From the NCBI RefSeq assembly GCF_000230675.1, contig NZ_AGIK01000001.1, positions 992,001 to 1,056,000 on the forward strand: 64,000 nt of DNA, given 5' to 3'. Every line of letters begins with the position of its first letter. Position 1 is the first letter of the stretch. The notes under the pieces were generated by a model. It ran no database searches, had not been told where the DNA came from, and saw only the letters and a program-made list of their open reading frames with translations. The DNA is from Synechococcus sp. WH 8016 (GTDB lineage: Bacteria > Cyanobacteriota > Cyanobacteriia > PCC-6307 > Cyanobiaceae). This document shows positions 37,223 to 44,606 of the stretch, piece after piece. The position numbers and the translations under genes were made by a program.

Positions 37223-37762
37223 TCACATCCGCCGAGTCACATTCGTACAGGAGAGAGCTGGCTCCACTTCATCGTGGGGGCGGGCAATGATGTGAGCAGC
37301 CACAAGCCCATCACCAACCCGCTCACAAGCATCGGCTCCTGCGCGCACGGCAGCGTTCACCGCACCGGTCTCACCACGCACCATCACCGTGACGTATCCA
37401 CCTCCTACATATTCACGACTAATGAGCTGCACTTCAGCAGCCTTCGTCATTGCATCAGCGGCCTCAATGGCAGGCACCATGCCACGGGTTTCAATCATCC
37501 CAAGGGCAATCCCAAAGGCACGTTTCGGGGAAGAACTCTTGGATGCCTGAAGGCTGGAGCCTTTTCCACCGCCTCCACTCGGAGGGGTCGCTCGCGAGGA
37601 GCTGCGAGCGGGAGAGCTGGCTGCAGGAGCGGAGGCACTCTCGACAGGCTTCACGTCAACGGTTGCTTTTGCTGCTGCTGAGGAGGGGGTAGCGGCTTTG
37701 TTCGCTGGGGTTGATGCTGCGGAATCTGAGCTGGAACGACGACGGGGTGTAGGAGTGGCCAT
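37223..37762 (-). CDS. csoS1E: carboxysome shell hexamer protein CsoS1E, with N-terminal extension
   Basis: 179 residues. A BMC domain (about residues 81-170, RAFGIALGMIETRG, EYVGGGYVTVMVRGETGAV) is preceded by 80 residues rich in Ala, Ser, Pro and Lys and predicted disordered. The BMC part is very close to CsoS1. This extended paralogue is known from marine alpha-cyanobacteria (CsoS1E). The tail may bind cargo or the shell interior. It is between csoS4B and ndhF4 on the same strand. Confidence 0.88.
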   Translation of the reverse strand: MATPTPRRRSSSDSAASTPANKAATPSSAAAKATVDVKPVESASAPAASSPARSSSRATPPSGGGGKGSSLQASKSSSPKRAFGIALGMIETRGMVPAIEAADAMTKAAEVQLISREYVGGGYVTVMVRGETGAVNAAVRAGADACERVGDGLVAAHIIARPHDEVEPALSCTNVTRRM

Positions 37763-38346: not shown

Positions 38347-40251
38347 TCAGTGAGCCTCCTGAACGTCAGGATCGAGAGTGGACCCTACAACTTCTGCAGG
38401 AGCAGTTTGACTGCGATCTCGGATCGTCAAACAGGTATGGAGTAAACCATCACGAACGAGGTCTGAGTATCGATTTGAAATAGCCGAATCAACTCTCTGA
38501 CAATCCGAAATGGCTCGTTCGCGCGCACCAGGGACGGAACTGGAGTAATCAAAACGGATCACAACAGGGATCGGCAAATCTCGCGAAACGTTTAAACCTT
38601 TGAAGATTTTTACACCGACATCCAAATCGGGTGCCCCCTCTTCGACGGTATCTAAATGCGCAAAGTAAGTGAGATTTCGCAAATGAACTTCTTTAAAACC
38701 GATGCCTACACCAATAAAACGTTCGGCATGACCCGCATCGGGATAAGGACCAGCATGAAGCTCGGTAACGTAATCAATCTGAGAGATGTTATTCGCAATT
38801 AAACGCGTAATCAAGGACACCATTCCCGAGTCCATCGATCCGGGTGCACCAGATTCAACGGCTTCAGCGATTTGAATCAACGCCTGATCAGGAGACATCG
38901 TGGACGTTGTCTCGTAGAGATCTTGAGCTGACACCCATCGATCTAATTGTGTTGAACTATCGCTTGAGGGGGGATGAACCCTGATCGCATCGGTATCGGT
39001 ATCAAGTCCAATCAACAACAAGTCAACGGAAGCGCCGCAGCAAAAACTATTTTCGACAGCCTGTCGAAAATCAAGAAGACGCTGATATCCAGCAGAGGCC
39101 GCCAATTTGTCATCACTTCCATGGGCAGCACAGCCTTGATGACTGGGATCCAAGGAACTGAAGTGGTAGGTCACGACCTTGAGGTAGCGGGTGTCCTGGC
39201 TGCCGGCATTAGGGATCGCCTCGCGATAACGCCGATGCTCGGTCTTGACCCATCGATTGACCGTATTTTCGACGTCAAACATCGCTCCGGCATGGGAACG
39301 TCGACGCACGGAACTGAATGGAATACGTAAGGCGTAAGCAATCGAATGAGCCAAACGACCATCCGCACAAGGCGTCACATCAAGGAGATGAAAACCACAA
39401 TCGAGAAGGAAGGACTCAAACGTCTTGGCTGCTTCACTCCCTGAAGAAGCAGCGAGGGGATCTTTCTGAAAAAAGCAATCACTAAAAACACGGTGCGATT
39501 CAAAAACACACCACGCATAGAGCGCTCTCATATCCAAAGGACGTACCCAGGCACGCTCAAGAATGTGCTTGGGAAGGTCAAATCCCAGCTCGCGACAGGC
39601 TAAAAGCTGAGCCTGATCAATAAAATCAGCATGATGTTGAAGCGCTGAAATCTTTTGAAGAACAGGAACAATCCTTTCAAACCGCCCTTTGACTTCTAGT
39701 TCGTAGGAACGTAAATGGTCATTAGCAACCCGATCCGTTAAAGGATGTAGGCGATGAGCGACTGAGCGCTTGGATGTTTGACGATTAGATGTTTGACGAT
39801 TAGATGTTTGACGATTAGATGTTTGACGATTAGATGTTTGGCGATTAGATGTTTGGCGATTGGATATTGAGCGCTTAGACGTTGGGAGCGTTGTGGTCGA
39901 TTGGGTCGAGCGATTTGAACGACTCAGTGGTGCATTTGAAGACTTTTGATCGCGACGAACCCAGGCGGGTTGTTGCGGGACTGAACGCCTGCTGTCTTGG
40001 CTTGTCCTGACCCGACCAGCACCAAGCGTGCCTTGAGCCAAGACGGCGGCCTTACCGGATGTGGTGAGTGCTCGCCTTCTTTCAAGCGAAGCTGCACGCG
40101 CCGAGGGGGGATTGGGATCAGCTTGCTTGGACTGATCTTGATTGGAATCAGAGGAAGCCGAAGACTCGGCTCTCCTTTGTTGCAACTGACGTCGCGTCGG
40201 AGCGGAGGGGGACAGAGGTCGCCCGCCACGGGAAGGCATAGAGCGGACCAT
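38347..40251 (-). CDS. csoSCA: carboxysomal carbonic anhydrase CsoSCA (CsoS3)
   Basis: 634 residues. The catalytic domain has the zinc ligands Cys295, His363 and Cys374 (VTPCADGR, TYHFSSLDPSHQGC) and the Asp297/Arg299 pair, spaced as in Halothiobacillus CsoSCA. It converts bicarbonate to CO2 inside the carboxysome. The 180-residue N-terminal tail is disordered and basic. It contains LERRRALTTSGK (56-67), very like the Rubisco-binding repeat of CsoS2, and six copies of NRQTS (131-160). The ATG at 40239 is an alternative start. Confidence 0.93.
   Translation of the reverse strand: MVRSMPSRGGRPLSPSAPTRRQLQQRRAESSASSDSNQDQSKQADPNPPSARAASLERRRALTTSGKAAVLAQGTLGAGRVRTSQDSRRSVPQQPAWVRRDQKSSNAPLSRSNRSTQSTTTLPTSKRSISNRQTSNRQTSNRQTSNRQTSNRQTSNRQTSKRSVAHRLHPLTDRVANDHLRSYELEVKGRFERIVPVLQKISALQHHADFIDQAQLLACRELGFDLPKHILERAWVRPLDMRALYAWCVFESHRVFSDCFFQKDPLAASSGSEAAKTFESFLLDCGFHLLDVTPCADGRLAHSIAYALRIPFSSVRRRSHAGAMFDVENTVNRWVKTEHRRYREAIPNAGSQDTRYLKVVTYHFSSLDPSHQGCAAHGSDDKLAASAGYQRLLDFRQAVENSFCCGASVDLLLIGLDTDTDAIRVHPPSSDSSTQLDRWVSAQDLYETTSTMSPDQALIQIAEAVESGAPGSMDSGMVSLITRLIANNISQIDYVTELHAGPYPDAGHAERFIGVGIGFKEVHLRNLTYFAHLDTVEEGAPDLDVGVKIFKGLNVSRDLPIPVVIRFDYSSSVPGARERAISDCQRVDSAISNRYSDLVRDGLLHTCLTIRDRSQTAPAEVVGSTLDPDVQEAH
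39757..39876 (-). repeat. 15-nt tandem repeat in csoSCA encoding NRQTS units
   Basis: Six in-frame 15-nt units at 39772-39861, nearly identical at DNA level (two carry a G for A change), encode NRQTS. Degenerate units at both edges encode KRSIS and KRSVA. The similarity suggests recent slippage expansion. Confidence 0.9.
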
Positions 40252-40258
40252 TCGTTGA

Positions 40259-42652
40259 TCAGCCCCGTGCTCCGCCAGAGACGGTAATCAGTGAACCCTT
40301 TGAAGTGCTGCCGCTGGAACCCGTTACACGACTTTCAGGCCACTCAGACTGCTCGTTGCGCTTTCGTTCGAAGGGGGGCATGGCTCCCATCGCGCCAGAA
40401 CGGCTTGGATTACGACGACGAGCAGACACACCTTCCGTGCCCGTCACATGTTCACCACGATCCCAGTCATCACCCGTCACTTTGGTGGACGAGCCCTCTC
40501 CGGTGACCCGGGAAGCAGGTTCTTGCGTGGCGACTTCAACCTCAGGGGTGGTGGGTTGAAATTGACGTTGGGGCTGAAGTTGGTTGTGACGCTCTTGAAA
40601 TTCACGATTATCAAATCGGAATTGCTCTGTGCCGGTGATTTTGCCACCGGCCAAATCAAAAGGGCCTGTAATACGGCTGCTGTCTTCATAAGCGGTGCCG
40701 GTGACACCTTTGCTGGTCTCACGCTGCTGTTGCGCAGCTCGGGCAGGCGACACCACACTGAATCGCGTCCAACTCGATCCCTCTGGTGATTGGCCATGGG
40801 TCTCTGTACCGAGCGGTGCCTCAGCACCACACGCTGCTGACAACTGATCAGCACCGATATAAGGAGTTCCTGTCACCGCTTCGCAGGCGCCGCGTTCGCC
40901 ACCTGTCATCACTCCTCCAATCCCTGGCTGAAGACCTGTCATCGGAGAGGAGGGCGTACCGGGACGAACGGGAGTCCGTTCGCGGATCGCTTGAACAGCA
41001 GAGTTACCGCAGTATTGGCCTGCTTGCTCGAGACCTGCGTAGGGAGTTCCCGTGACTGCTTTGCAGCTTCCTGGCTCGTCACCCGTGACCTTTTCGGAAC
41101 GGCCGGTGCGAGTGCCGCTCACAACTTGATTCCGATTGGTGACGCTGAATCCAACCTTGGCGGCTTCTGGATCCGGCTTCGCACCACAGAATGAATTGAC
41201 TTGTTCGGAACTGATGTATTGATTACCAGTCACCCGATGACAAGATCCGAATTCATTTCCAGTGACACTGGAAGAACGGCCCACCATCGTGCCGGTCACA
41301 CCCGTACCTGAAAGGGTTTCAGACAGACCAACCTTGGCAGCTGGACGCCCTTCAGGAAGGGGATCAGACCCTAAATATTGATCACCAGTAAGAGAGCGAT
41401 TCGCACCAGCTTCATCGCCAGTCACGCTGGAGGATCGTCCCACCATCACCCCACTCACTGGGCGACCTTGCTGCGTCAGGCTATGGCCAACCTTGCGCGG
41501 AGAGGGGTTGCTTCCACCGCAATAGGCGGCGCTTTGATTCGCAGAAATATATTCCGTGCCTGTCACGCTTTTGCAGGTGCCAGGCTCATCCCCAGTCACT
41601 TTCTCCGAGCGCCCAACTTCGTTTCCTGTGACCCGATTGCCATGGCTGGTGGCAGACACACGAACCTTGGCGGGTGTGGTTGGCGTTGGAGCGCTCTGAC
41701 AGAAGGTCTGAAAGACCTCCGCACCGAGATATTCCGTACCAGTAATGGAACGACAAGTGCTGGCTTCATTACCCGTCGTCTTGACGGAGCGATTGGCCTG
41801 CGTGCCTGTCACAGTCTGACCTCCCGTCGTCTCAGACTCACCCACCTTCCAGTGAGCATCAGCGGCGGCGGATTGCTTGGCTCCGTTTCGATTTGGGCCA
41901 GTTGGACGCGTTACTCCAGCGCTTTGCTTGCTACGGGCTCCGGACTTCGCGCGAAGCTCACGCACCTGTTGAGCCAGCTCTCGGCTGGTGAGATCAGGAT
42001 TGGCCTGACGGGCCACTGCGGCAGCACTTGTGGGTTGTTTTCCTGCAGTTTTTCCGTGTTTAGACATCGCTTCACGACGAGCCAACACCAGGGAACGGCT
42101 TGGGTTGTCGATGGCACGTCGCTTTGGAGCTTTGCTCCGGCGAGAAGAATTGTTGGTTGAAAGATCAACAGTTGCCGCTTGTCGGCTTAGACGCGTTGGT
42201 GTTTCGCCTGCGCTAGCGCCGCCACAACCACAGTCTTTTTTAGCGGCTGCTGGCGCTGATGTGGCTGCCGTGGTCGCTGTTTTACGAGCGACCTCAGCCC
42301 GATTTCTGTCTTTGGTTGTATCTGCTGATTTCCCACGACGTGACAGGGCTTCTCTCCGAGCAAGCACGAGCTCTCGACTGGGTTGGCTCACAGGTTTCAC
42401 CCGAGAACGATGGGCACCAGATGATGCAGATGTCAGTGATTGATTTCTTGGTCGCTCAACAGCGACGGGGGTTGCGGCCTTCGAAGGGGCTGCTGCCGCA
42501 ATTGGATCTGCATTGGTGCGCGTCTTGCGAGCATCGCCGGCCGACCGAACGCGATTCGCACCTGCTGATACAGCAACGGATGCCTTTTTGCCAGCAGTGG
42601 TGAGAGCCTTACGGCGCTCGAGTGCTAGTTCGCGACTAGAAAGTCTTGCCAT
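40259..42652 (-). CDS. csoS2: carboxysome scaffold protein CsoS2
   Basis: 797 residues, intrinsically disordered, in three parts. N-terminal region: repeats such as SRELALERRKALTTAGK, SRELVLARREALSRRGK and SRSLVLARREAMSKHGK, which bind Rubisco. Middle region: five full repeats opening with KVGxS/KVRVS and carrying VTG triplets with a terminal Cys (the third copy lacks the Cys), plus a shorter sixth. C-terminal region: VTG/ITG motifs and a terminal tail that anchors to the shell. It links Rubisco to the shell during assembly. Confidence 0.95.
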   Translation of the reverse strand: MARLSSRELALERRKALTTAGKKASVAVSAGANRVRSAGDARKTRTNADPIAAAAPSKAATPVAVERPRNQSLTSASSGAHRSRVKPVSQPSRELVLARREALSRRGKSADTTKDRNRAEVARKTATTAATSAPAAAKKDCGCGGASAGETPTRLSRQAATVDLSTNNSSRRSKAPKRRAIDNPSRSLVLARREAMSKHGKTAGKQPTSAAAVARQANPDLTSRELAQQVRELRAKSGARSKQSAGVTRPTGPNRNGAKQSAAADAHWKVGESETTGGQTVTGTQANRSVKTTGNEASTCRSITGTEYLGAEVFQTFCQSAPTPTTPAKVRVSATSHGNRVTGNEVGRSEKVTGDEPGTCKSVTGTEYISANQSAAYCGGSNPSPRKVGHSLTQQGRPVSGVMVGRSSSVTGDEAGANRSLTGDQYLGSDPLPEGRPAAKVGLSETLSGTGVTGTMVGRSSSVTGNEFGSCHRVTGNQYISSEQVNSFCGAKPDPEAAKVGFSVTNRNQVVSGTRTGRSEKVTGDEPGSCKAVTGTPYAGLEQAGQYCGNSAVQAIRERTPVRPGTPSSPMTGLQPGIGGVMTGGERGACEAVTGTPYIGADQLSAACGAEAPLGTETHGQSPEGSSWTRFSVVSPARAAQQQRETSKGVTGTAYEDSSRITGPFDLAGGKITGTEQFRFDNREFQERHNQLQPQRQFQPTTPEVEVATQEPASRVTGEGSSTKVTGDDWDRGEHVTGTEGVSARRRNPSRSGAMGAMPPFERKRNEQSEWPESRVTGSSGSTSKGSLITVSGGARG

Positions 42653-42751: not shown

Positions 42752-43093
42752 TCAGCGACCTTCGAAAACCACGAAGCAGGAGCCTTGGCCCTGGGTGTAG
42801 GCGTCGTAACCAACGATGCGAACGTGATGGTCGGGGTATGCGCGATGGCAAGCCTCGAGTTCACTCACAACAACGTTGAGATCCTTCTCACCGAAGAACG
42901 GGAGCTTCCAATAAGACCAGTAAGTGGCCATGGAATTGGAAGGATGGACATGCTCAACGAGCGGGCTCCAACCTTGGGCAATGATGTAAGCGATCTGGTC
43001 ATAGATCTCGTCCTGGGTCATCGGCGGAAGGAAGCCGAATGTCTCCAGGGTGGCGACTGTTTGGTAGTCACCCACGGTGCTCTGAAAAGGCAT
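42752..43093 (-). CDS. cbbS: Rubisco small subunit, form IA
   Basis: 113 residues from the ATG at 43093 (MPFQSTVGDYQTVATL). The segments ETFGFLPPMTQDEIYDQIAY, MATYWSYWKLPFFGEKDLNV and HVRIVGYDAYTQGQGSCFVV match the cyanobacterial form IA small subunit, which completes the L8S8 holoenzyme. It lies 100 nt downstream of cbbL across two hairpins. Confidence 0.97.
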   Translation of the reverse strand: MPFQSTVGDYQTVATLETFGFLPPMTQDEIYDQIAYIIAQGWSPLVEHVHPSNSMATYWSYWKLPFFGEKDLNVVVSELEACHRAYPDHHVRIVGYDAYTQGQGSCFVVFEGR

Positions 43094-43193: not shown

Positions 43194-44606
43194 TCACTGA
43201 ACGTCGAGCTTGTCGACGGTGTCGAACTCAAACTTGATCTCCTTCCAGGTCTCGAGAGCGATGGCCAGCTCGGGGCTGTGCTTGCCGGCTTCCATGAGGA
43301 TGTCGCGGCTTTCTTTCTCGATCTCGCGACCAGCGTTGCGTGCCTTGACGCAGGCCTCGAGGGCCACACGGTTGGCAGCAGCACCAGCTGCGGAGCCCCA
43401 GGGGTGACCGTGGGTACCACCACCGAACTGGAGAACGGAGTCGTCACCGAAGATGGCAACCAGTGCGGGCATGTGCCACACGTGGATACCGCCGGAAGCA
43501 ACGGCGAACACACCAGGCATGGAACCCCAGTCCTGATCGAAGAAGTTGCCGCGGCTGCGATCTTCAGGAACGAAGGATTCGCGGAGCTGGTCGATATAGC
43601 CGAGGGTGGTCTGACGATCACCTTCCAGCTTTCCGACCACGGTGCCGGTGTGGAGTTGGTCACCACCGGAGAGACGCAGGCACTTCGCTAAAACGCGGAA
43701 GTGAATGCCGTGCTTGGGATGACGGTCAATCACAGCGTGCATGGCACGGTGAATGTGCAGCAGCATGCCGTTCGCACGACACCACTTCGACAAACCGGTG
43801 TTGGCGGTGAAGCCACCGGTGATGAAGTCGTGCATGATGATCGGCTGCTTGAGTTCCTTAGCGAACTCAGCGCGCTCATACATCTCTTCGGGAGTGTTCG
43901 CGGTCACGTTGAGGTAGTGACCCTTGCGCTCACCGGTCTCCTGCTCAGCCAGCTTGATGGCTTCCGCAACGAATTCGAAGCGGTTCTGCCAACGCTGGAA
44001 CGGCTGGGAGTTGATGTTCTCGTCGTCCTTGGTGAAGTCCAGACCGCCACGCAGGCACTCATAGACAACACGGCCATAGTTCTTGCCGCTCAAGCCAAGT
44101 TTTGGCTTGATGGTGCAACCCAACAGTGGACGGCCGTACTTGTTCATACGGTCACGCTCAACGGCAATGCCGTTTGGTGGGCCTGCACAGCACTTGATGA
44201 ATGCAATCGGGAAGCGAATGTCTTCCAGACGCAGGTGGCGCAAAGCTTTGAAGCCGAAGACGTTACCGACCAATGAGGTCAGAACGTTGGTGATCGAACC
44301 CTCTTCGAACAGGTCGAGGGGGTAAGCGATGAAGGCATAGAAAGCCTCCTTGTCACCAGGAACGTCTTCGATGCGATAGCAACGTCCTTTGTAGAAATCG
44401 AGGTCGGTGAGGAGCTCGGACCACACAGTGGACCATGTACCAGTTGAAGATTCAGCAGCAACAGCAGCTGCCACTTCTTCTTTGGGGACACCTTCTTGGC
44501 CGGTGCACTTGAAGCAGGCCAGCAGGTCGGTGTCTAGGGGAACGTAATCGGGAGTCCAGTAAGTGTCTCTGTACTCCTTGACCCCAGCGTCGTACTTCTT
44601 GCTCAT
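43194..44606 (-). CDS. cbbL: Rubisco large subunit, form IA
   Basis: 470 residues. Seen: the catalytic-lysine loop segment [17 protein letters not shown], the carbamylated-lysine segment [17 protein letters not shown], the [13 protein letters not shown] segment and the C-terminal [12 protein letters not shown]. It fixes CO2 to ribulose bisphosphate inside the carboxysome. The form IA type follows from its cso-type locus and from sequence. It is preceded by csoS1, 68 nt upstream. Confidence 0.99.

Follow-up and report, generated by a model that had tools for sequence, protein, structure and literature searches.

According to the available text of Blikstad et al. (2023; PMC10614612), in Halothiobacillus the disordered tail of the carboxysomal carbonic anhydrase CsoSCA binds Rubisco at the CsoS2-N* site, with another motif, and the two proteins compete. 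The Halothiobacillus element, PRLDLIEQA, differs from the CsoS2 repeats both in motif and in binding mode, being buried deeper and hydrogen-bonded, and a stack formed by R10, Y72 and Y96 was shown at the Rubisco site. A single sentence of the same paper mentions the CsoS2 motif in "a handful" of CsoSCA proteins from Prochlorococcus, suggesting an evolutionary relationship, and the paper proposes PTAPx[R/K]R as a possible binding motif of cyanobacterial CsoSCA. The available parts of PMC11086599 and PMC12646314 describe CsoSCA as hexameric in Cyanobium and Halothiobacillus.

Here we analyse the CsoSCA of Synechococcus sp. WH 8016, encoded in a 64,000-nucleotide stretch of DNA (the window). As in the cases of Blikstad et al. 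(2023), a CsoS2 pattern is present in its tail, and the basic observation is therefore already published in the text available to us (PMC10614612). Its lineage-wide presence in Synechococcus, its N1 source, the single gain, the losses and the lack of gene conversion were not found in the available text of that paper or of later papers and reviews; the accessible portions of PMC12918739, PMC13370225, PMC13249358, PMC11086599, PMC12646314, PMC11365436 and PMC9164163 added nothing to it. In the literature searched, which did not extend to preprints and most subscription papers, we found no experiment that probed the tail of a cyanobacterial CsoSCA against Rubisco.

Results

The cso operon lies on the minus strand of the window, as do all its features given below, and contains cbbL (43194-44606), cbbS, csoS2 and csoSCA in that order, followed by small genes that we take to be shell-protein genes. 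The scaffold protein CsoS2 (797 residues, 40259-42652) was identified by its ORF and a domain search, and CsoSCA (634 residues, 38347-40251) by its ORF and Pfam domains PF20687, PF20686 and PF08936; the csoSCA start codon is 7 bases past the csoS2 stop. CsoSCA_N, CsoSCA_cat and CsoSCA_C are all present (131, 379.5 and 184.6 bits, each above its cut-off) and the first of them starts at residue 169, so residues 1-168 constitute the tail. Downstream of csoSCA, a 179-residue ORF (37223-37762) shows by eye a long Ser/Ala/Pro-rich N-terminal extension and looks like a CsoS1-type shell protein carrying such an extension, presumably the one called CsoS1E.

CsoS2 of the window contains the N1 repeat (residues 5-46, 42515-42640), the N2 and N3 repeat cores (residues 93-108, 42329-42376, and 186-201, 42050-42097) and, as read from the sequence, a degenerate fourth N repeat (residues 223-238, 41939-41986). 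The CsoSCA tail carries an N1-like block at residues 50-89 (39985-40104), and the interval of 39985-40101 that a previous sequence-only reading had given for it was right. Within the block are a match to the published Rubisco-binding motif of CsoS2, RxxxxxRRxxxxxxGK (residues 52-67, 40051-40098), which reads RAASLERRRALTTSGK, and a GRVR element (residues 79-82, 40006-40017). The near-identity to N1 claimed by that reading is borne out, as the 12-residue cores of CsoSCA and CsoS2 N1, LERRRALTTSGK and LERRKALTTAGK, share 10 of 12 residues, and over 20 residues the two cores have 13 residues but just 50% of nucleotides in common. RVR follows the pattern in both proteins, so the order of elements is shared as proposed; the spacing is not, since in the alignment RVR stands one residue further from the pattern in CsoSCA. 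The block resembles the CsoS2 N-repeats in pattern, N1-type sequence and downstream RVR and, as far as the low-confidence structure prediction given below indicates, in its disordered setting and helix. It differs from them in being present once, and in an enzyme, whereas the scaffold has several copies.

We collected 80 named loci and 100 genome stretches that, together with the window and after excluding 30 short loci (L081-L110), yielded 169 distinct Cyanobiaceae CsoSCA. The strict pattern was present in 46 of these tails (hereafter, positives), all of them in genus codes g1 (that of the window) and g5 or in Synechococcus-titled loci; by their strain names, these are the marine Synechococcus. 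All 22 Synechococcus-titled loci had the pattern, which was absent from all 53 Prochlorococcus-titled loci, from the Cyanobium-titled ones and from the other genera sampled. This contrasts with the genus label Prochlorococcus given in the available text of Blikstad et al. (2023). Absence from other alpha-cyanobacterial tails, which the sequence-only reading regarded as evidence against its claim, is therefore what was observed for other genera, for Prochlorococcus and Cyanobium titles and in two losses described below, but not otherwise within the clade that carries the motif.

A census of 400 Cyanobiaceae whole genomes with a motif profile agrees with this distribution. In g1, 28 of 31 genomes had any match: 25 with four sites, G181 and G193 with three, and the fragmented G307 with the CsoSCA site only. 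Among the 32 g5 genomes listed with matches, 31 had four sites and G162 three. The intact pattern was found in the CsoSCA tail of all 20 further g5 genomes, chosen among those with four profile sites (10 of these tails were new), and, judging from the site count, the fourth site of the remaining four-site g5 genomes would also lie in CsoSCA. Outside g1 and g5, four sites were present in G025, G125, G236 and G325; in the first three a CsoSCA copy was rejected, as the sites are in CsoS2 frames or on split contigs, and the fourth site of G325 falls within a frame of 42 residues on a separate contig. The CsoS2 of G025 (locus L182, a sister lineage) has four N-type repeats in one frame, versus three in most genomes, and two of them are inside a long, apparently identical duplicated stretch. 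In the genome of the window, the four sites at E <= 1e-4 are three in CsoS2 and one in CsoSCA, and at this threshold no other protein carried the motif either there or in nine further genomes.

A Smith-Waterman alignment of the 169-residue tail with CsoS2 of the window scored 107, a value reached by 1 of 2000 shuffled tails, and this margin is modest because both the tail and CsoS2 are rich in Ser, Arg and Ala. As this test was only moderately convincing, we built N1, N2 and N3 profiles (102, 92 and 83 sequences) using only genomes with a pattern-free CsoSCA. The N1 profile matched 45 of 45 scanned positive tails (L146 was outside the scanned set) with E values from 4e-7 to 2e-13, and 1.9e-10 for the window, which refer to a search of the collected CsoSCA tails only; it outscored N2 and N3 in all 45. 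None of the three profiles found anything below E 0.65 in the 123 scanned negative tails. In profile-profile comparisons the block matched N1 with E 2.4e-14, N2 with 2.9e-6 and N3 with 1.3e-5, and the part after GK alone gave 1.7e-4, 0.019 and 0.11, respectively, so that a likeness beyond the core, also claimed previously, holds; scanned tail by tail, this downstream part was significant (E < 0.01) for just 11 of the 45 positives, and for no negative among 123. N2 and N3 were rejected as the source repeat, N1 being best both in the profile scans and in the profile-profile comparisons. A PDB sequence search with the block returned weak matches only (PsaQ, E 0.5; a CsoS2 chain, E 1.6). When the 45 positives were aligned with their own CsoS2, the median z was 5.5 and the minimum 2.0, and whole-tail alignment alone does not separate every positive from the negatives: some of 121 negatives from other genera reached high z (L181, 4.4; L155, 4.1). 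These were rejected as CsoS2-like stretches, as their alignments are gapped, of low-complexity Pro/Ser/Arg composition and without the pattern, and the profiles found nothing in them below the value given above. Altogether, the comparisons confirm at the sequence level that CsoSCA residues 50-89 carry a real CsoS2 N1-type motif that is similar beyond its core.

Because the positives were selected by the pattern, they agree in its R, RR, G and K residues by construction; this agreement is no evidence of conservation, and therefore only the clade-wide, all-or-nothing state counts. A clade of 48 sequences, delimited on the folded part without regard to the motif, comprises 46 with the complete pattern, two without the block and none with a substituted pattern; a loosened-pattern search in the 123 negative tails found nothing. 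The block is either kept intact or deleted, and no substituted version was seen. A61, L62, A69, R80 and R82 (the last two in the GRVR element) are invariant in the 46 copies even though they were not used for selection, while the tail stretches around the block vary widely. A QQPAWVRR element (residues 93-100, 39952-39975) is kept in the same clade.

In a FastTree phylogeny of 118 CsoSCA cores, the positives together with L119 and L120 form the clade of 48, with two state changes; its support is just 49 on CsoSCA alone, and 85 when its sister L182 is included. An IQ-TREE phylogeny of 47 rows based on CsoSCA, CsoS2 and CbbL recovered the positive clade (25 rows) with an SH-aLRT of 99, again with two state changes, with L182 as its sister (99) and five short-tailed rows (G071, G152, G058, G010 and G052) as the next group out (99). 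On both trees, the history is one gain and one loss. The loss corresponds to L119 and L120 (genomes G181 and G193), close relatives in which the block is gone between QLQQ and PAWVRR, the latter part of the QQPAWVRR element, in what looks like a clean deletion. G162, which is on neither tree, represents a second loss: the helix core is gone while GGGRVRSAGD and QPGWVRR are kept. The tail of L222 (G112) is similar to that of G162 and still has the core. Assembly gaps are unlikely to explain these losses because G181, G193 and G162 are single-contig genomes. The motif is dispensable, as it was lost in two sublineages and other sampled genera do without it.

A further invariant group in the 46 positives (P15, A17, P18, R20 and Q22) belongs to SPSAPTRRQ (residues 14-22, 40186-40212), the PxAPx[RK] element of cyanobacterial CsoSCA tails, present in 161 of the 169 tails (46/46 positive and 115/123 negative). 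It is close to the PTAPx[R/K]R motif in the available text of Blikstad et al. (2023). Since one invariant element is general and the other, N1-like, is bound to the clade, the tail is bipartite, with an older PxAPx[RK] element and an acquired CsoS2-type one. PRLDLIEQA is absent from the 168-residue tail of the window. The linker from the motif to the folded domain contains a 15-bp tandem array coding for NRQTS (39773-39865; 6.2 copies, 97% matches), in whose place L114, a close relative, has a far shorter stretch; the length of the CsoSCA tether varies between relatives, probably by slippage. In the long tails of other genera SKVLRQRELA recurs in L136-L144, and RGTRARA in L159-L163, L166 and L167; neither stretch matched the N1-N3 profiles, and both are candidates for lineage-specific docking motifs.

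At the Rubisco site, F71 in the CbbL stretch DLDFYKG (44385-44405) occupies the position of Halothiobacillus CbbL Y72, and the second tyrosine of CbbS GYDAYTQ (Y102; 42791-42811) that of CbbS Y96, according to hand counts on the alignments. The CbbS tyrosine is present in 163 of 163 sequences sampled, and the CbbL position in Cyanobiaceae is F in 86 and Y in one of 87, although Y72 is called conserved in alpha-carboxysome Rubisco in the available text of Blikstad et al. (2023; PMC10614612). As far as the alignments indicate, the aromatic ring needed for the stack is kept in CbbL and the tyrosine hydroxyl is not. F71 occurs both with and without the CsoSCA motif, with no co-variation, and hence the site residues are only permissive. 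An AlphaFold model of a single chain without partner, from 40 CsoSCA sequences, had pLDDT below 50 in residues 1-23, 25-49 and 61-165, and a helix at residues 51-64 that coincides with the motif and spans all but its end, with a mean pLDDT of just 56 over residues 51-60.

Finally, we compared the CsoSCA cores of 45 genomes with N1 of the same and of other genomes. Identity to the own N1 was 0.660 for amino acids and 0.574 for nucleotides, versus 0.663 and 0.584 for N1 of other genomes, and the own-genome values were reached in a fraction of 0.85 (amino acids) and 0.99 (nucleotides) of the permutations. Own-genome nucleotide identity ranged from 0.48 to 0.72 (0.50 in the window). All 45 N1 repeats carry E4, L5 and K19, which recur in only 2, 1 and 0, respectively, of the 46 CsoSCA copies. 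In L149, V precedes GK in the CsoSCA copy (ATVGK) as well as in N1 (TIVGK); the change is rare, and its occurrence in both is probably due to chance.

Discussion

Our preferred explanation, to which we assign a probability of about 0.7, is that a Rubisco-docking motif was copied once, long ago, from the N1 repeat of the neighbouring csoS2 into the csoSCA tail, that it has diverged since then without gene conversion, and that it tethers CsoSCA to Rubisco. The motif, in a disordered tail, would probably form a short helix upon binding and would dock, like CsoS2 N1, where the CsoS2 N-repeats bind, in the groove that two CbbL subunits form with CbbS; R59, the second R of the pair and the equivalent of R10, would stack between CbbL F71 and the CbbS tyrosine. 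The motif, its best-matching source repeat, its distribution, the single gain, the losses and the lack of conversion are shown by the sequences, whereas we infer the binding, its site, the helix and the function. The motif would join the older PxAPxR element in the tail as a second one and, as CsoSCA is a hexamer in Cyanobium and Halothiobacillus, six such tails would be displayed together, which could tether the enzyme to Rubisco and draw it into the Rubisco-CsoS2 condensate. The Halothiobacillus precedent invoked by the sequence-only reading holds for the binding of a CsoSCA tail to Rubisco, but not for this motif, as that of Halothiobacillus differs from the CsoS2 one in the available text (PMC10614612). 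By analogy, CsoSCA and CsoS2 probably share a docking place on the Rubisco of this Synechococcus group, and that they compete for this one site is a reasonable inference.

It is conceivable, though we consider it improbable, that the tail evolved the same short motif independently, selected by the same Rubisco groove and with no DNA copied. Short linear motifs arise easily, the two segments show low identity at the nucleotide level, and in Halothiobacillus CsoSCA evolved a motif of its own to bind this site (available text of PMC10614612); however, the likeness extends past the pattern and is specific for N1, both over the block and in its downstream part, and the trees show a single gain, which makes convergence less likely than a single old duplication. 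Somewhat more doubtful is that PxAPxR alone docks Rubisco, with the block serving as basic, disordered filler or as a binding element for the shell, CsoS2 or nucleic acid. The near-universal presence of PxAPx[RK], the two losses of the N1-like core and the CsoSCA shell contacts reported in the available text of Ng et al. (2025; PMC12646314) would agree with it, whereas 46 of the 48 clade members retain an unbroken CsoS2 pattern and the remaining two have no block at all, and at E <= 1e-4 the motif occurs in the window's genome only in CsoS2 and CsoSCA. Recurrent gene conversion keeping the copies alike, the other origin put forward by the sequence-only reading together with duplication, is very improbable despite the adjacency of the two genes, the likeness of the copies and the shared V of L149, since the CsoSCA core is no closer to its own N1 than to the N1 of other genomes, no own nucleotide identity is above 0.72 and the residues fixed in N1 are nearly absent from CsoSCA. 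A single old event with independent evolution of the two copies afterwards fits these comparisons; gene conversion does not.

A bolder version of the single old copy, which we regard as speculative, is that capture of the N1 motif would have turned the CsoSCA hexamer of this clade into a second multivalent scaffold for Rubisco. Its six N1-type stickers and six PxAPxR elements could then cross-link Rubisco and, by competing directly with CsoS2, adjust how cargo is packed and how much enzyme is loaded; two sublineages would later have given up this division of labour.

The N1-like motif is thus real, intact through a clade and lost twice, and its function, by analogy with CsoS2, is likely with good support. 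The way in which carbonic anhydrase is recruited to cyanobacterial alpha-carboxysomes is not yet established, as the solved tail-Rubisco complex is that of Halothiobacillus, whose motif is not conserved (available text of Blikstad et al. 2023). This group provides a whole clade with a defined motif whose key residues are known, strains that have lost it naturally (G181, G193 and G162) and motif-free relatives, and the question of recruitment therefore becomes testable with a short peptide. The N1-like block is also a candidate targeting tag for engineered carboxysomes.
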